Both the position numbers and the translations under genes were made by a program. A DNA stretch of 64,000 nt from Phylloscopus collybita (lineage: Eukaryota > Chordata > Aves > Passeriformes > Phylloscopidae), in contig JAJNNQ010000018.1 of assembly GCA_027886175.1 (NCBI GenBank), positions 20,627,001-20,691,000 of the forward strand, given 5' to 3'. Numbering within the stretch: position 1 is the first letter of the stretch; each line of letters starts with the position of its first letter. Below the pieces are notes generated by a model. That model was not told where the DNA came from and made no database searches. It saw nothing but the letters and a program-made list of their open reading frames with translations. Of this stretch, positions 24,901 to 62,315 are shown piece by piece.

Positions 24901-27464
24901 ACTTTTCCAGTACCACACAATAACACATGTTCATTACATATTGCTATTGTACAATGTTTTCATACATAGCTTGTTTCTGTCTCAACTGCCAAAAATCTAA
25001 TTGTAGTAAGTGACTACCATATATCTAGCATGAATAGTACCCTGTTTTCCTTGGGCTGGATTTTTCAAAATAATGACTGCAAATCAGAGTCTCATGCTTA
25101 CCACTTACTCTCAAATTGTCAATATGTGCCTGTATAAGCAGAGACTTCCAAGGGGTTTCATGGTGCAATAGATATGCCAAATTCCTCTTCAGCATGTCTA
25201 TATAGGGAGGGTTCTTGGGAAACATCTACTCAAATAGTCAGGAAAAAAAGAGATAGAAGGTGATGGAACATCTCAAACATAAACCACTGCACTTTATTTA
25301 TAAGCATTTTCACTGTAGCATTTTGGCCTATATTATTCTCCACCTTAAGTGCCCATTTAAATTGCATTTTAAGCTTTTCCCAGAATTGTGTGTAGAAACA
25401 TTGTGTCTCTCACATGGTTCTTCCCCCTTTTCCAAAAATTATCTTTTCCCCACATTAACACAAAGAACTCACTTTCTGTTAATTGCTCAGTAAAAGAGAG
25501 TACCTTGGGGCTTTATTAAGTAAGATTTCTGAGAGACTGAACCATGTGTGACCTAAATTGGCTACATAAGTGCTTTCTGGAGGGCATAGAGCAGTATTCA
25601 CAAACATAATCGTCTTTCACCTTGATGTTAATTATATGCTTTGCCATTCAAAGTAAGTTATGGCCATGAGCTAAAGCATTTGTAAAATAAACATGTCAGG
25701 AAAGCAAGATACAGGAGAATTAATTAAAATAGTAAATTCATCACTATTAAAAACGCCTTTTCTTTTTACTTTCAATCTCTAGTGTGGCCTAAACTGTGGC
25801 CAGAAAACAACCACTGGTTGCTAAAAGGAAGGTAGCAAATTTTCACCTCTCTAGGTTGCTTTGTTTAAAAATAAAAATATAATGCACAGATCTTTTCCTT
25901 GTAATATGAAAATAAATGAGCCTTCCTGGTTAACAACAATTTGACGAGCTGGAAGTGCTTCAGAGTCTCATAAAATAACATTTCCCCTAGAAAAATGAAT
26001 GTTTTACACTACCTATCATTTTCACATTTCATTTTCTGTTTGAGGTTTTTTTCTTCCCTTTTTTAAATCAAGGATATTTATACAAAAACAGATTCTTTAT
26101 TTCTGAACTGTGCTCTACTCCACCAAACTCCATATGAGCCATTTTTGAGAGTGAGTTTTGTGGTGGGTTTTGTTGCATGCTGTTTAAGGGAGGACCATAA
26201 GAACAAAAATCACCATGATCCAGAAAGCAAAGTCTCCGATCAAACAGAATGGCAACAAGAATTTACTGATTGCCAACAGCAATTAGTGATGAGTTTAGAA
26301 AAGCATATTCCAGACCTGGCCAACTTTAAAGCACTGGCTCAGCTGAGACAGAAGTACTAGATTTTACAAATAGATTTTTGAGGCATTTAAGAAAGATCAT
26401 AAAGAAGATGCTTGAAAAAAAAATTTGGATGTTCTTTGCTTTAAATTGTCATCTGCCAGACTGTTAGCAGGATACAGTACAGCTGAGGATACAGAACAGA
26501 GATAAAGGTTTTTCCCTATAATTTCAAGCTTGAAACCACGCTGCTCACTTCCTACTTCCTACTAGATAGCCCACCTTAGTCCCTCAGAAGACCCACAGGG
26601 GCACTGCCTCTGAATTCAGGCTGTGCTCTCTTCTACATTGTCTCCTACATCAAACTCCAAAATTCAGTGTAAAGAATTCCATTTCTCATTTGACTGAAGT
26701 CTCCATTTTCACTCTCTTCTCCATCCACCTTTTTTTTTTTGCCTGATACCTAAATGCTAAGTCCTCAATGTTCCTCTGTAAGCCCACAAAAGCCAAACCA
26801 AAATATAAAAACAAATGTCTGTAGCTTCAGAAAAATATATAACAGATATACAGAAGATGAATCCACTGAAAGGTTTAGTACCTGGGACAATATTTTAGGG
26901 AAGTTTATTCTGTTTGTCTTTATGCTTTCTTTCTAAACCAGTGCTGATGAATTGTGTTAAATCAGACTGTTGACACAAATAATCCTTTGATCTGAGCTAG
27001 CATGGCTGTTCTTATGTCTGCACAGTACCTCCATTCTCTGTTCACTCTTTTATGTTTCTTTATAGAAGCTAAGACTAAGCTTCTTTCAAAACAATTTTGT
27101 TGATATCTGACATACTTTATAAACTAGGTAATATTTCATAAGCCTGTAACATCACCCATTTGAGTCATACTGGATATTAGTTACAAGTATAATACATTAA
27201 ATTAATACTAGAAGTATCATTGTGAAGCCCTTTCTTTAAGATTACAATAATAAAGTTTAGATAAAGAGTTTCTCACCTCCTTCAGGATATTAACTGCAGA
27301 CCAAAAGGAATGATGAGGGCATGGACTAAACACACAGTAGAATAAAAAAAAATCAGGGAAAAATTTTAAGCCTCTTATACATCATCATTTTCACTGATCA
27401 AGTTTATTTTTTTTTTTTCCTTTATAGGCTACAGTTTAAGTCTCAACTCAAACCTCTAGAAAGT

Positions 27465-27985
27465 ACTGGAATGCCCCTGTACTGGGCACTGGTGAGACTG
27501 GGACCACTCACAACAAGAACATGGAGGCTCTTGAGTGTGCCCAAAACAGAGCAACAAAGCTTGTGAAGGGTCTGGAGCACAAGTCTGATGATGCACAGCT
27601 GAGGGAGCTGGGGTTGTTTAGCTTGGAGAAAAGGAGGCTCAGGGGTGACCTTATCACTCTCTACAACTGACTGAAAGGAGGCTGTAATCAGGTGGGGGCT
27701 GGCCTCTTCTCCCAGGAAACGAATGTTCAGATGGGAGGAAATGGCCTAAAGTTGTGCCAGGTAAGATTTAGACTGGATATTAGGAAAAATTTCTTCACCG
27801 AAAGGCTGGTCAGGCATTGAAATAAGCTGTCCAGGGAAGTGGTGGATTCACCATCCTTGGAAGTATTAAAAAGGTGTGTGCATGTGGCACTTGGGGACGA
27901 ATTAGTGATCAAGACAGTGGTGCTGAGTTAACAGTTGGACTCAGTGATCATGGAGGTCTTTTCCAACCTTAATAATCCTATAAAA
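27465..27985 (+). mobile_element. CR1 LINE fragment, sense
   Basis: The segment carries the C-terminal end of CR1 ORF2 and the 3' UTR. Landmarks are GGAGCTGGGGTTGTTTAGC, TTGGAGAAAAGGAGGCTCAG, GGATATTAGGAAAAATTTCT and the terminal GTCTTTTCCAACCTTAATAA. Frameshifts and stops interrupt the frame. The minus-strand frame at 27727-27912 is an antisense reading of this element. Confidence 0.9.
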
Positions 27986-30624: not shown

Positions 30625-31340
30625 ACAGTTTTTGTGATTGCCCAGCCCTCTAATCTGTTGAGGTCTCCCTGCAGGGCCTCCCTGACTTCAAGGGAGTCTA
30701 CAGCTCTTCCCAGTTTTATATCATCTGCAAACTTGCTTAGTATCCCTTCAATCTTGAGTCCAAAACATTTATGAAAGTGTTGAAAAAGGACCAAGGATGG
30801 AGCCCTGTGGAACCCCATTAGTGACAGGTCACCAGTCTGATATCACCCCATTCACTGTAACCCTTTGTGCACAACCTATGATCCAGCTGCTCACACATCA
30901 CATGATGTGTTTGTTTATCTAGCTGTGTGCTGGATATTTTATCCAGAAGGATCCTGTGAGAGACAGTATCAAAAGCTTTACTGAAATTCAAAATTATAGC
31001 ATCAGGTAGCTTCCACAGATCAGCTAGGTGGGTTCCCATAAAAGGAAAATGAAAGTTCTGATAAGCAGACTTTACCCTTTACGAAACCATGCTGGTTGTG
31101 ACTGATAACTCTGTTGTCCTTCAGATGTTTTTCAGTAACTCCCAGGATAATCTTCTCCCTAAGTTTACCAGGCACTGAAGCCAGACTAACAAACCTGTAG
31201 TGTCCAGGGTCATCCTTCTAGACCTTTTTGAAAACTGTGACAATGTTAGTCAACTTCCAGTCAACTGGGACCTCTCCAGATTCCCAAGATCCTTCAAATA
31301 CAATCAAGAGAGATCTCAATCTCATAAATACCCATAAGAG
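30625..31340 (-). pseudogene. CR1 LINE reverse-transcriptase remnant
   Basis: Translating the minus strand in pieces gives FSKAFDTVSHRILLDK, then NGVPQGSILGP, then FADDIKLGRAVDSLE. These are successive blocks of a non-LTR reverse transcriptase, including the catalytic FADD box. Upstream pieces (31060-31320) read like the N-terminal part of the same domain, including a HNQHGF-type block. The order is correct but the frame is broken by stops and shifts, and neither the endonuclease nor the 3' UTR is present. This is an internal CR1 fragment that cannot encode an enzyme. The A+T drift suggests an old insertion. Confidence 0.9.
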
Positions 31341-32046: not shown

Positions 32047-32413
32047 GGATAACATCTTTAAGAGTATATGTGAGAAACAGTCCTGCAGAGGCCAGGGCAA
32101 GAGAGAAGAAAGAGAGGAGGTGCTCTGCAGACACTGAGGAAAACAATGGTTTAGCAGACTCTCACCCTCCATTTTGTACCATTGGCAAGCAGATGTGCCC
32201 CTGCTCCCCTTAGGCATCCACAAGGGAGGCAGGTAATGCTTTAACCCCAGCCAGAAAGAAAGTGCAACACAGAGGCTCACTCTCCCCACCAGCTTGCAGG
32301 GGGAGCAAATTGGAGGAATAGAGATTGGAAAACTTGCAGCTCAAGATAAAAAAGCCAATTTACTAGAGAAATTACACGCCAGACATGCAAGCAAAGCTAA
32401 CAGCACCATCATC

Positions 32414-32569
32414 ATGCAGCCATTGTGACACCACTGGTGAGGTTGGCTCTGTAAAGCGCCTGCATCACAAAGGGCTGCAGCCCGGCCCCCCTATAAAAGC
32501 AGGGCAGCCGCTCTCAGACAGCACTCAGTCAGCACCACCATGGCTGGCTACAATCGGCGGCGCAGAGGG
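32414..32569 (+). promoter_or_regulatory. Core promoter and leader, identical in both gene copies
   Basis: These 156 bases are identical to 34034-34189. They contain CATTGTGACACCACTGG, a GC-rich stretch, TATAAAAG at 32492-32499, the leader, and the first ten codons. The TATA box lies about 48 bases before the ATG, so transcription would start roughly 20 bases before it. TGACA is a half-site for CREB/CREM-type factors and CATTGTG resembles a SOX site. Both suggestions are inference, chosen because such factors drive haploid spermatid genes. Confidence 0.7.
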
Positions 32570-32794
32570 TACAGGAGCAGGAGCCGGAGCCGGCGGCGCC
32601 TGCGGAAGACCCGGCGCAGCGGCCGCTCTCGCCGCCGCAGCACGCGGCCACGACGGCATCTCGCCTCACGTGCTGCCCCAGCCGTCAAGCGCCGGCCCCC
32701 CAGGAGGCTCAGCCTTCAGGAAGAAGACCTGCCAGATGACGAGCTGGATGACCTGGGAGACTTTGATGAGCCAGTAGATGACTTTGAGTTGTAG
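32540..32794 (+). CDS. Protamine-like sperm nuclear basic protein with acidic tail, copy 1
   Basis: An intronless 84-residue protein, seen complete. Residues 1-59 hold 25 Arg, 2 Lys and many Ser, with no Cys or Trp. Residues 60-84 hold 14 Asp/Glu and no basic residue. The start MAGYNRRRR and the SR/RS-rich body resemble the avian protamine galline (known to be intronless, cysteine-free and present as two copies), which suggests replacement of histones in spermatid chromatin. Galline, as I recall it, is about 60 residues and lacks an acidic end. RRLS at residues 55-58, at the basic-acidic junction, fits the R-R-x-S consensus of basophilic kinases. The ATG is in good context (CACCATGG) and follows a TATA box. 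A paralogue lies about 1.6 kb downstream on the same strand. Alternatives are a transition protein or another arginine-rich nuclear protein. The open frame is very secure; the family call is inference. Confidence 0.8.
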   Translation: MAGYNRRRRGYRSRSRSRRRLRKTRRSGRSRRRSTRPRRHLASRAAPAVKRRPPRRLSLQEEDLPDDELDDLGDFDEPVDDFEL

Positions 32795-32842
32795 AGCCAG
32801 AGCCCCTGAGAAGACCGGCCACCACACAGCCCTGGCTGCAAC

Positions 32843-32848
32843 AATAAA
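32843..32848 (+). terminator. Polyadenylation signal AATAAA of copy 1
   Basis: AATAAA stands 48 bases after the stop codon and is followed about 40 bases later by a GT-rich stretch (GGTGTACTGTGCACTTGTAG), the arrangement expected for cleavage and polyadenylation. The same signal occurs at the same place in copy 2. Confidence 0.8.
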
Positions 32849-32982
32849 GCATAGCAAGTTTGCATGATGAGAGAGCGTATCTCTGGTGTACTGTGCACTT
32901 GTAGTAGATTGCTCAGTGTCCACCCATGTCCCAGGGGTGTGGGTGGCCCACACGTCAGTGTGTCCATGTCCATGCCCAAGAG

Positions 32983-33657
32983 CAGGATGTGTGTGTCCAG
33001 GCACGATGTTCCTGTGTGTGACCTGTATATCTGAGGATGCTCATGCGTGGCATGTGCATATCTAGGGTTGTCTTTGGGATGAGGTGTGATTGATTGTGTC
33101 TGCAGCCCAGGGCCTGTGGGGAGTGCACGTGACCAAAGACAGACAACATCTGCTCCTGCCACTGGTCCCTTGGGCTCCTTTTTTGGGTCCTTCTTATTGC
33201 CAGGCCCCTAGAGGCTAAGCAGAGCCCACAGAAGAACCCTCAGTGCCTCATGCCCTCTCCCGTGGCACTGCTGGGATTTTAAGGGTAAAGGCCACACAAA
33301 GCAGTGCAAGTTGCTCTGCCCATCTATCTCCTGACTCTCACCCTGGCCAATCCTCCACTCCTGGAAGGCCTGTCACATTGCCCTTCACAGATCTCCCTGT
33401 AGAGAGCCCCCTGACCCTGCAACACGCTTCTCAGTGCTGCTGTGCTTTCCCCCACCTTCCCCTGGTTCTCTCTGCCTGTCTTTGGCTTGGGTTACTGAGG
33501 GCTTCAGAGCAAGGAGACAGTGTGGAATCTGGGAGAAGATGCCATCAGTTGCCCCATGTCAGCCAGCGTAGTGCCAGCCATGTCCAAGAAGGACTCACCA
33601 CTGGCCAAGGCCGAGCCCAGTCTCAAAGGTTGGGAATTCATTATCCCATTATCTCAG
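32983..33657. other. Unique spacer between the duplicated units
   Basis: GC-richer than the surrounding desert and starting with TGTG-rich sequence. It is not part of the alignable duplication. It probably represents flanking sequence from the original locus or material lost from the outer edges of the pair. No gene is supported; the plus-strand frame at 33243-33680 has no motif. Confidence 0.5.
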
Positions 33658-34033
33658 GGATAATGTCTTTGGGAATATAGAGGCCAGGGCAGGGGATAAG
33701 AAAGAGAGGAGGTGCTCCAGACAATGCAGCAGGAGTTCCTCTGCAGACACTAGGGAAGACCATGATTTGCAGGCTCTTACTGTGCAGCCCATTTTGTGCC
33801 ATTGGTGAGCATTGGTGTGCCCCTGCAGCTCTAGGACATCAATGATGGAACTGAGTCGTGCTTTAACCCCAGCCAGAAAGAAAGTGCAACACAGGGGCTC
33901 ACTCTCCCCACCAGCTTGCAGGGGGAGAGAATTGGAGGAGTAAAGATTGGAAAACCTGTGGCTCAAGATAAAAGCCAGTTTACTAGAGAAATTAAACACC
34001 AGGCATGCAAGCAAAGCTAACAGCATCATCATG

Positions 34034-34189
34034 ATGCAGCCATTGTGACACCACTGGTGAGGTTGGCTCTGTAAAGCGCCTGCATCACAAAGGGCTGCAG
34101 CCCGGCCCCCCTATAAAAGCAGGGCAGCCGCTCTCAGACAGCACTCAGTCAGCACCACCATGGCTGGCTACAATCGGCGGCGCAGAGGG
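34034..34189 (+). promoter_or_regulatory. Core promoter and leader of copy 2
   Basis: Base-for-base identical to 32414-32569, with TATAAAAG at 34112-34119. Both copies should therefore be transcribed in the same cells unless more distant elements differ. Confidence 0.7.
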
Positions 34190-34414
34190 CACGGGAGCCA
34201 GAGCCGGGGCCGGCACCCCCTGCGGAAGACCCGGCGCAGCGGCCGCTCTCGCCGCCGCAGCGGGCGGCCAAGGCGCCATCTCGCCTCACAAGGCCCCCCG
34301 GTCGTCAAGCGCCGGCCCCCCAGGAGGCTCAGCCTTCGCGAAGAAGAGGAGCCGGAGGACGAGCTGGGTGACCTGGGAGAGATCACTGAGCCAGTAGACA
34401 ACTTTCAGTTGTAG
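34160..34414 (+). CDS. Protamine-like sperm nuclear basic protein with acidic tail, copy 2
   Basis: An intronless frame of the same 84-residue length as copy 1, with no gaps between them and 63 of 84 residues identical. Identity is complete over residues 1-10 and 21-34 and high over 49-59. Differences cluster at 11-20, 44-48 and in the tail. This copy is less basic (21 Arg, 2 Lys) because Arg is replaced by Gly, Gln, His or Pro at 12, 14, 19, 20 and 44. Its tail has 11 acidic residues rather than 14 and uses Glu where copy 1 uses Asp. RRLS at 55-58 is kept. Conservation of frame, promoter and AATAAA argues that it is functional rather than a pseudogene. Proposed role: spermatid chromatin compaction, with copy 1, by inference from composition and resemblance to galline. 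Confidence 0.78.
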   Translation: MAGYNRRRRGHGSQSRGRHPLRKTRRSGRSRRRSGRPRRHLASQGPPVVKRRPPRRLSLREEEEPEDELGDLGEITEPVDNFQL

Positions 34415-34462
34415 AGCCAGAGCCCCTGAGAAGACCAGCCACCACACGGGCCTGGCTGCAAC

Positions 34463-34468
34463 AATAAA
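34463..34468 (+). terminator. Polyadenylation signal AATAAA of copy 2
   Basis: AATAAA stands 48 bases after the stop, as in copy 1, followed by GTGTGTATCTCTGGTATGCT as a GT-rich downstream region. Confidence 0.8.
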
Positions 34469-34602
34469 GATAGCAAGCTTGCATGATGAGAGTGTGTATC
34501 TCTGGTATGCTGTGCATTAGCAGTAGATCACTCGATGTCTGCCCAAGTCTTAGGGGTGTGGGTGCCCCACAGGTCAGTGTGTCCATGTCCATGCCCAACA
34601 GC

Positions 34603-37600
34603 TGTGAGTGGCACAATACGTGGTAGAGTTTGGGATCAGACTAACAGACCATGGACACATGCACACCTCTTCCTGGATGCCCCTGACTTTTATGTCAAGC
34701 CACAAGTTTTCTCAGTTTTAGTCTTCTGATTCTCTCCCCCAGCAAGCTATCCTCAAAATCCCAGCAGCACCATGGGAGTGGGCACAAAGCACCAAATGTT
34801 ATTCTCTGTGTGGGCTCTGTTAAGCCTCTTGGGACTTTGCAAAAACAGGCACCCAAAAATGGATCCCAGGGGACAAGAGAAAATAACAGAGACATCTGTG
34901 TGGGCTTGGTCACATGAACTGCCCAACAGGGAGAGACTACATGTATTGTTTATATTCATCTATTCATCCCTGAACACCTTCAGAACTTCTGGCTGAATAC
35001 CATCCAGGCCTAGGCATTCTTACGTATCTTTTATAAAATTTATGTATATTTTTACAATAATCTGTAAGGGTATTAGCATAATATAAATGTTCTCTCCCCT
35101 TAAATCTCAGAATGTCATTCTAGCAGTGGTATTCCACTTAAATATGCAGAAAGCAGTTTACTAATGAAACATTCCATAGGTTCTATAACTTATAAAAGTT
35201 TGCCTAGATTTAAAAGCAATTAGAAGGATTAATGGAAGAAAATTCTGTCAGAGGCCATGAAATATAAAGACTTCAGGCCCAGAAATACTTGGGAGTATCC
35301 TCTGAGGTAGTATCATTATAAGTTTGACCTGCTCTGTTGGCCACTGTTGGGCATTCTTTTGTAATTGTGTAATAGTATGAGAAGCACAGCACCAGACAAA
35401 GAGAAAGTTCCATCTTTTGCCTAATAAATGTCAGACACTCAGAAACACCCATAAGTAAGAGCCAATTCTCAGCCTACAAAAGAAACATTTATTTATTTAT
35501 TTCCTTTCTGTAGCAAAGAAAGATGTCCTTATCAGCCTGCTACATTAAATCACCTCTGGCCTGGCATGCACTTCAATAGATGCTGTTACCATGGTGCTGA
35601 TGGACAAGTATCCTCTGCATACAAACAATAGCTTTAATTTGAAGTTCGGTGTGCCTAAAAGACTCTCTGATGAGTCAGTAAGGTACAGAGACTGAACTTG
35701 GTATTTAGTTTTCTGAGGATCTTGAAGGTGTGATGTAAAGTGCACTACTGTATGTTGTGCTGCATAAGCAGAAGCACGTAAGGCTTCTGGATGAAAGCAT
35801 TCAGTGCAAAATACCCTTGCAGGCTCAAGAAAAGAAATATATATGAAGGATAGGAGGAGTGAACAATCCAACACCAAAGAAAATTGCTAGGAATAAAGAA
35901 AAGAGCTGTTTAGCATTTCAAAAGGTGTCTTTCTTCTTATGTGTGTTCACAGTATTCCAAATATGTCAACATATCCAGAAATCTTCAAGCTAGAGTAGTA
36001 GCTGGCTTGTTCCAAAGGAGATCACCCTGATGAATGGTAATATATAGAGCTGGTATGTCAGTGTGGGCTAATCTGAAGCTACAGGGGTGATCTGCCAATC
36101 CTAACAAAGATAAATACAGCTTCTGCTTCACAGTGTTTCACAGTGCCAGGTACTGGCCATTGGTTTCCCTAACGTGATGGATTTTATGGTCAGGTGTGGT
36201 GACATCTCATGACCTAAATAGCTTTCAGAGAACAGCTGGTTTGTTTTCAATGATGATGGATTATACTCCAGAACTCCCCATGAGAAACGATGTCTCATGC
36301 TTGCAAGTACTGTATGGATATGGGTAAGTCCCAGCCAGCTCCTGGACTTAGTAAACATCCTTGTGTTTTTATAGCAAGTTTCTGTCCATATTTTTCCCAT
36401 GCTTTTTAGCTCCCTCCTTTGTTTCTCAATCATCCTAGACAAATTGATAATCACATCCTCCTCAGTACATCCTTGCAGGGTTACATATGGAAATGTGAAG
36501 AAGACACTGAAGTCAGAAATACTGCTAAATGAAGGTACTACGTAACATCTGATTTCAGCTACAGATCATGAGTTTTAGCCATAGCAGCAACAGTGACTGC
36601 AAACCAAATTCTTACTTTCTTGTGGCATGTCACTACAGAGCTACACCAGTAATGCCTCTCCCTGTTGTGCACCAGTCAAACCTGCACAGGAAGTTCCACT
36701 GGTTATGTGCTCCTATACCTGCTAGAGGAAAATACTGTAAGCAGGAATGTTGGGCAGAAAGAGCACAAGAGGGAAGTTCTGAACATGATGGAGCCCACTC
36801 TGCACAAAACCAGACTGAATCCAGCAAATTTCTCTGGTTATGCAGTATATACACTAAAGCTAAACTTAGCCTTGTATGCTTTACCTACCAAACTAATGGG
36901 AAAATTTACTACCACAGAGTATTAATACTGCAGCAAAGAAAAGGGTCCATGTCTGAATTATCTGGAACAACAGTTCTCAAGCTACATATATATATAAAAA
37001 TTTAACTGAATTATGGACTTTAATAAGGATTAATATAGTAAGCTTTCTTGCACTACAGGCTAATGCACACCAGTAATTTCTGGTTTAAACAGAGAGTGTT
37101 GCTATTTTCGTTCATTTTCACTCTTTTCTTTAAAGCATTTCAGTATATTGCCTATCTCTTTGTGTTAAGAATGAGCAGTTTCAATTTAAGACTCTTCTCT
37201 CTCCGAATGCTTGAATGTTTTGGATATCAGGCAGCATGGTGGCAGCAGGGGAATGCAGGGAAGCACCCACAAGCAATGCCTAAGGGAGAAGACAAACACC
37301 ACCAACAGCAAGAAAATAAACAAAATTCCAGAATAGTCCTTCCATCTGTTTGCTATACTGTGAAAAAGTCCATTTTTAGTGTAATAGCCAAAGGGATTTT
37401 AAAAATGCTTCAGTACTGAAGGAACACATTTCCACTAAAGTTACTGTACTACAGGCAATTACCTCTTTCCTGTTTGAAGTAGATTCAATACTGCAGTTCT
37501 TCAGAAAGTGAGGGACTGTTTGTGGGCACCAGATGAATCCAGGTGAGCACTACATAAGCTTTTCATGTACCTATTTTTGGAATACCTGCCTGTGACCTGC

Positions 37601-61589: not shown

Positions 61590-62315
61590 CACAGAACCAC
61601 AGAATCACAGAGTGGGTAAGGTTGGAGGACACCACAGTTGGGTCACCTGGTCCAACCTCACTGCTCAAGCAGGGTCATCCTACAGCTTGCAGGATGACCT
61701 TGCATAAGGTTACATTCAGACTATTCTAGAGGATATCCAGTGTGGGAAACTCTGCAGCCAAATCTGTTCCAGTGCTCAGTCACCTGCACAATAAAGCTCT
61801 TCCTTGTGTTCAGGTGGAACTTCCTGTGCATCAGTTTCTTCCTGTTGCCTCTTGTCCTATTGCTGGGCACCACTGAGCAGAGCCTGAATCCATCCTCTTG
61901 GCACCCTCCTGTCAGCTACTGACAGACATTGAAAAGGTCCCCTCTCAGTCATTTCTTCTCAAGGCTGAACAGGCTCAGCTCTCTCAGACTTTCTTCATGA
62001 GAGAGATGCTCCACTCCCTTAATCATCTTTATTGCCCTCCACTGGACCCGCTCCAGGAGGTCCAAGTCTCTCTTGTACTGAGGAGCCCAGAACTGGACAC
62101 AGTACTCCAGCTGTGGCCTCACCAGTGCTGAGTAGAGGGACAGGATCAGCTCCCTTGACCTGCTGGCAATGCTCTTCCAAATGCCTCTCAGGTCTTCCTG
62201 GCCCCCAGGGCACACTGCTGGCTCATGGACAACTTGTCCACCAGGACCCCCAATCTTTCTCTGCAGAGCTTCTTTCTAGCAGATCAGACCCCAGCCTGTA
62301 CCAGTAAATGAAAGC
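61590..62315 (-). pseudogene. CR1 LINE: ORF2 C-terminus and 3' UTR, antisense
   Basis: On the minus strand an 88-codon stretch (62215-61949) reads through the conserved end of CR1 ORF2, including [35 protein letters not shown] and [12 protein letters not shown]. It continues into the 3' UTR and ends at 61590 with the complement of CACAGAACCACAGAATCACA. The reading frame here is the best preserved of the CR1 copies in the window. The polymerase core and the endonuclease are absent, so it is a 5'-truncated dead copy. The plus-strand frames over it are antisense shadows. Confidence 0.92.

Follow-up and report, generated by a model that had tools for sequence, protein, structure and literature searches.

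Galline, the protamine of chicken and quail, is a small, cysteine-free protein rich in Arg and Ser; it is encoded by intronless genes present in two copies and starts with M-A-x-Y-x-R. To our knowledge, galline carries no acidic tail, and its Arg content is above that of the two proteins described below. In mammals, the protamine cluster, to which PRM2 belongs, is located beside CLEC16A/SOCS1. For PRM3, we know of no Arg-rich body. The VCX/VCY proteins of the primate testis combine a basic N-terminal part with an acidic C-terminal part and belong to the male germ line.

Typical protamines were described to contain 60-80% Arg (PMC3073880). For mouse PRM2, a 2022 paper reports that an extension, cP2, is needed for the complete exchange of histones and transition proteins and is trimmed off later; when the extension was lost, the histone variant H2A.L.2 and transition proteins were left behind, and the mice were infertile (PMC9273070). 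The authors regarded their own result as a first step toward the role of the cleaved extension, and the word "acidic" is absent from the main text of their paper (PMC9273070). PRM3 was described as a short, cytoplasmic protein with a high Glu content that does not count among the true protamines; a paper cited there names the gene in its title as intronless, with expression in haploid germ cells (PMC4890041). The protein is acidic and affects motility. In APLF, an acidic domain with aromatic anchors can chaperone histones (PMC9328677). Fast evolution is not general in protamines; mammalian Prm1, for one, was described as largely conserved (PMC4724148).

This paper will focus on a locus of Phylloscopus collybita, located in a window of 64,000 nucleotides (C18:20627001-20691000; the assembly comprises 1.247 Gb in 517 contigs). 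Here, two small genes, probably of one exon each, were identified in tandem. As the best, though tentative, explanation, to which we give somewhat less than an even chance, the pair codes for a spermatid nuclear basic protein that changes fast and carries a built-in counter-charge in the form of an acidic C-terminal tail.

Organization of the Two Genes

ORF A (32540..32794) and ORF B (34160..34414), both on the plus strand, code for 84 amino acids plus a stop codon each. Both products consist of a basic Arg/Ser-rich body and an acidic tail, and B is about 75% identical to A (64 of 84 residues by direct count, with no indel). A preliminary description, made from the DNA letters, had claimed a tandem pair of 84-codon frames, each with its own TATA box and AATAAA, and this organization was confirmed. 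The TATA box CTATAAAAG is present at 32491..32499 (+) for A and at 34111..34119 (+) for B, in both cases 49 bases before the ATG. The ATG lies in the context CACCATGG (32536 for A and 34156 for B, + strand), which was rated good. The AATAAA signals at 32843..32848 (A) and 34463..34468 (B), on the same strand, begin 49 bases past the last base of the respective stop codon. In frame A, a motif scan revealed no GTRAG and a single GTAGA. From the compact layout of promoter, ORF, and poly(A) signal, a one-exon structure of both genes is plausible. Replication-dependent histone genes carry a 3' stem-loop in place of a poly(A) signal; here, in contrast, AATAAA is present, and no Rfam match at the gathering score was obtained in the window.

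Charge Division of the Two Proteins

The frame is intact in both copies, each of which has a promoter and a poly(A) signal, and the same two-part charge design is seen in both products. The body of A (residues 1-59) contains 25 Arg and 2 Lys with a net charge of +27, and that of B (residues 1-59) contains 20 Arg and 2 Lys with a net charge of +22; Asp and Glu are absent from all 59 positions of either body, and there is no Cys in A or B. The cysteine-free Arg/Ser-rich body of the preliminary description was thus found again in both copies. The tail of A (residues 60-84, encoded by 32717..32791, + strand) comprises 14 Asp/Glu, no Lys or Arg, and two Phe, giving a net charge of -14; the corresponding segment of B (residues 60-84, 34337..34411, + strand) comprises 11 Asp/Glu, one basic residue (R60), and one Phe, giving -10. 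The abrupt change that had been placed at residue 60 is located at residues 57-61, with R56 as the last Arg of the A body. For the whole proteins, net charges of +13 (A) and +12 (B) result.

The Arg share amounts to 25/84 (30%) in A and 21/84 (25%) in B, or 25/59 and 20/59 of the bodies, in contrast to the 60-80% given for typical protamines (PMC3073880). This Arg content is low for a protamine and counts against the plain label "protamine". The composition of the pair goes beyond chance. Within the window, Arg exceeds 18% in these two frames alone among 73 ATG frames of at least 60 amino acids. The charge split of the pair (41 and 34) is the largest of 295 such frames (at least 60 amino acids) in 264 kb around the locus, and the next one, 27, has the opposite sign and is located in a GC island.

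The segments common to A and B are MAGYNRRRRG, LRKTRRSGRSRRRS, RPRRHLAS, and VKRRPPRRLSL. Arg/Ser repeats are found in residues 11-20 of A. A conserved R-R-L-S-L junction precedes the acidic tail (R-R-L-S-L-x-E-E), and at the C-terminus EPVD-x-F-x-L is shared. The Phe residues of the tail are partly kept, with F75 and F82 in A and F82 only in B. An AlphaFold model based on a two-row alignment gave a mean pLDDT of 64.3 and a pTM of 0.12, a low confidence which is consistent with disorder and is no proof of it.

Duplication and Divergence of the Copies

The two genes are part of a direct duplication with units of 0.87 kb that lie 1.6 kb apart. Unit A (32115..32983, +) is 86.8% identical to its partner, unit B (33731..34602, +). 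Within the units, a tract of 156 bases comprising the promoter, the 5' UTR, and codons 1-10 (32414..32569, +) is identical to 34034-34189, whereas the outer flanks of the copies differ by 16-25%. Compared with the rate in the flanks, 156 identical bases suggest recent gene conversion, constraint, or both. Inside this tract, at 32420 and 34040, the SOX-like motif CCATTGTGA is present. On the minus strand, an inverted relic was identified at 34683..34930, in which 34683-34748 matches 33913-33978 upstream of B (79%) and 34748-34930 matches 33113-33287 (72%); possibly, these are the remains of a third, inverted unit devoid of its ORF.

Along the units, A and B differ at 30 of 120 sites far upstream and 13 of 168 nearer sites, at 1 of 129 in promoter and 5' UTR, at none of 30 in codons 1-10, at 20 of 147 in codons 11-59, at 16 of 75 in the tail, at 4 of 70 in the 3' UTR, and at 19 of 121 in the 3' flank. 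The 252 aligned coding bases therefore carry 36 differences, with neither a stop codon nor an indel, while indels are present in the flanks. The coding divergence exceeds that of the promoter and both UTRs (36/252 versus 5/199, p = 9e-6), as does the tail that of the 3' UTR (16/75 versus 4/70, p = 0.008). Relative to the 3' UTR alone, neither the whole coding sequence (p = 0.06) nor codons 11-59 of the body (p = 0.11) showed a significant difference, and the coding sequence did not differ from the 3' flank (36/252 versus 19/121, p = 0.76). That the coding part diverges above promoter and UTRs fits a fast-changing protein; the low promoter divergence could also be explained by gene conversion.

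Between the copies, dN is 0.155 and dS 0.168, a near-neutral pattern with a dN/dS ratio of about 0.9 overall, 0.83 for the body, and 0.87 for the tail. There is no sign of purifying selection on residues and no excess of amino acid change either, and a ratio of about 0.9 is equally expected of unconstrained sequence. Among 20000 draws of simulated substitution starting from A, 43-49% retained an open frame, and 2.1-2.6% of the open draws jointly kept the body charge, the acid-free body, the tail charge, and the absence of Cys that are seen in B. An open frame together with the charge layout was thus kept in about 1% of the draws, while the features taken singly were kept in 16-62%. The limits were chosen after the data had been seen, and the reverse run from B to A, in which no draw was kept, is biased because A is the more extreme copy. 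Since the thresholds derive from the data, single features are often kept, and the reverse run is biased, the simulation gives moderate support to the conclusion that both copies retain an open frame with its charge layout.

Genomic Neighbourhood

The pair sits in a gene-poor stretch. At a Pfam threshold of 0.05, no family was found in positions 1-44.8 kb of the window on both strands, and at 0.01 none was found on both strands of L008-L012, the 50 kb to the left of the window. Gene finding by codon usage marked mostly GC islands, plus the two ORFs, and the pair itself lies in a CpG-rich patch. To the right of the pair, SEL1L on the plus strand is the closest gene that was recognized. Here, fn2 and Sel1 repeats and one RVT_1 were detected in plus-strand frames of L015-L019 by the Pfam scan, and, roughly 78 kb away from gene B, an exon at C18:20739070 gave a match to Protein sel-1 homolog 1 (8ket) with a whole-sequence E of 3.3e-22 and a best stretch of 31 residues. 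In a CpG island near C18:20716160, located 25 kb beyond the window and at a distance of 55-57 kb from A and B, a frame resembling a signal peptide is a candidate for the first exon of SEL1L. Besides the GC-rich island near 20716000, two others lie to the right of the window (C18:20704600-20705160 and C18:20759600-20760480). Three frames in the window, at 27440-27670 (+), 30818-31078 (-), and 61949-62275 (-), read by eye like fragments of CR1 LINE reverse transcriptase, as we presume; the first two remained without a Pfam match in the scan of 1-44.8 kb.

Exons of an FPL-family gene, which we take to be CLEC16A, are located at C49:2.56 Mb, on a different contig from the window on C18. The mammalian protamine locus was ruled out on this basis, so the pair is not located there, as far as one marker tells.

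Searches for Relatives

In a genome-wide protein search, in which nine candidates were scored, the two proteins were found at E <= 0.001 in at least two places, and tblastn over 264 kb returned the same two. At E <= 10, no Pfam family, transition proteins included, was obtained for A or B, except for an RSB_motif match of A only, which is not significant (E 0.25, 12.1 bits versus a cut-off of 27.1). The profile of protamine P1 (PF00260) matched neither A nor B and found nothing across this genome; the control genomes were silent too. Since a provisional galline sequence also gave no Pfam match at all, this profile may not cover birds. The PDB sequence search with A returned one match, ribosomal eL37, at E 5.4. 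In the protein database, no relative was found at E <= 1; the provisional galline sequence was likewise unmatched there, so the silence of this database is uninformative on birds. Searches of GTDB contigs and of viral contigs returned no relatives, as expected for a host gene. An Arg-rich viral core protein was also considered and was dropped in view of the host-type layout of promoter and poly(A) signal and the missing family match. Searches of this genome for a further protamine, which were weak for this purpose, gave none. The earlier statement that no such protein had been described holds among the matches listed from the open-licence PMC literature, in which an acidic-tailed avian protamine was not found.

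Galline and Other Explanations

The preliminary description had placed the pair in the lineage of galline. The comparisons were made with the provisional galline sequence. For A, the best local score was 82, whereas shuffled bodies averaged 79.2, and 695 of 2000 shuffles scored as well or better; for B, the score was 68 against 64.8, with 660 of 2000 shuffles. For both copies, the similarity thus does not go beyond composition, BLASTP of A against galline gave no match, and the proposed lineage was not supported. The start M-A-x-Y-x-R has a probability of 1.3e-3 given the composition of the body, for a motif picked after the fact, and its being common to the pair and galline is suggestive. The longer form with R at position 7 (chance 5.5e-4) had been claimed as well; of this motif, M-A-x-Y-x-R stood, while position 7 did not, as the provisional galline sequence has S there. 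A search of this genome with the galline protein found nothing and was rated uninformative, and the codon pattern M-A-R-Y-R-R-x-R was also not found, with a control that was zero as well. The absence of cysteine and the presence of two copies (at least two places genome-wide) agree with galline, while the acidic tail and the lower Arg content separate A and B from galline as it is known. That the pair is a galline orthologue which gained or kept an acidic tail is therefore improbable in our view: two intronless-looking, cysteine-free copies with the shared start point to it, but a similarity no better than that of shuffled bodies argues against it.

With the tail attached, the net charge is just +13 in A and +12 in B, and the Arg content lies far under that of typical protamines. 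Both would suit a transition-protein-like or linker-type spermatid protein, in which the body binds DNA weakly and transiently, the tail stays, and the protein leaves before or during the deposition of another protamine. We regard this explanation as unlikely, though the most serious of the alternatives, since the Pfam search at E <= 10 gave no match to transition proteins and the weak searches revealed no second protamine in this genome. About as improbable as the galline orthologue is a germ-cell protein outside chromatin, comparable to mammalian PRM3, or an RS-type RNA-binding protein. The Arg/Ser repeats of A would agree with the latter, but the RSB_motif match falls below significance. 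PRM3 is not known to have such an Arg-rich body, and the pair is not on the contig of the gene taken as CLEC16A. A precedent for the former is given by PRM3 itself, a Glu-rich product of the protamine cluster that is cytoplasmic (PMC4890041). Both proteins are short and Glu-rich like PRM3, although the locus differs, as far as CLEC16A marks that of PRM3. Very unlikely is a decaying or chance GC-rich frame that yields no protein, such as a pair of relics whose frames stay open owing to high GC and the scarcity of stop codons. Here, dN close to dS, a coding divergence equal to that of the 3' flank, the CpG-rich patch, and the lack of relatives in databases that cannot be taken to cover birds point to it; opposed to this are the TATA box, start context, poly(A) signal, and intact frame in both copies, the identical promoter tract of 156 bases, and the rarity with which frame and charge design were jointly kept in the simulated draws.

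Possible Role of the Acidic Tail

For the favoured explanation, a spermatid nuclear basic protein with its own counter-charge, expression in haploid male germ cells, entry into the nucleus, and binding of DNA by the Arg/Ser-rich body are presumed. Before deposition, the tail, which is probably disordered, would pair with the body and reduce the charge from +27 to +13 in A and from +22 to +12 in B; by this lowering of the net charge, aggregation of the protein could be avoided during synthesis and import. At the chromatin, DNA would outcompete the tail for the body; once released, the acidic tail, whose Phe lie among acidic residues, might hold displaced histones or transition proteins during the exchange. 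The junction R-R-L-S-L-x-E-E, which to our eye resembles PKA and CK2 sites, might act as a switch, by phosphorylation or by cleavage. Masking, uptake of displaced proteins, and the junction switch are all proposed steps, and against a mechanism based on the tail stands that B shares just one Phe, F82, with the two in the tail of A.

VCX/VCY, a descriptive parallel, differ in that they are known from primates only and have acidic repeats. The mechanism is reasonable because the PRM2 extension and the acidic domain of APLF provide precedents. PRM2 is likewise a protamine carrying an extension (PMC9273070); however, cP2 is N-terminal, and the tail described here is C-terminal. APLF, a descriptive parallel as well, has an acidic segment with aromatic residues (PMC9328677), but the tail here comprises 25 residues with one or two Phe.

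In its strongest form, the proposal would describe a self-chaperoned protamine, in which a DNA-condensing body and a histone-accepting tail are combined in one polypeptide: the aromatic-anchored acidic tail of each deposited molecule would remove and hold a displaced basic protein, phosphorylation or cleavage of the junction would be the switch, and the design would have arisen in a bird lineage, at a place in the genome that has no relation to the protamine cluster of mammals. For this full version, we consider the probability to be low.

The question touched by the pair is how very basic protamines stay soluble, become imported, and replace histones without clogging the spermatid nucleus. 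If the favoured explanation is true, a protamine-like protein with a counter-charged tail would open this question to tests on one short polypeptide, and it would suggest that birds solved the handling of protamines at another locus and by another route.
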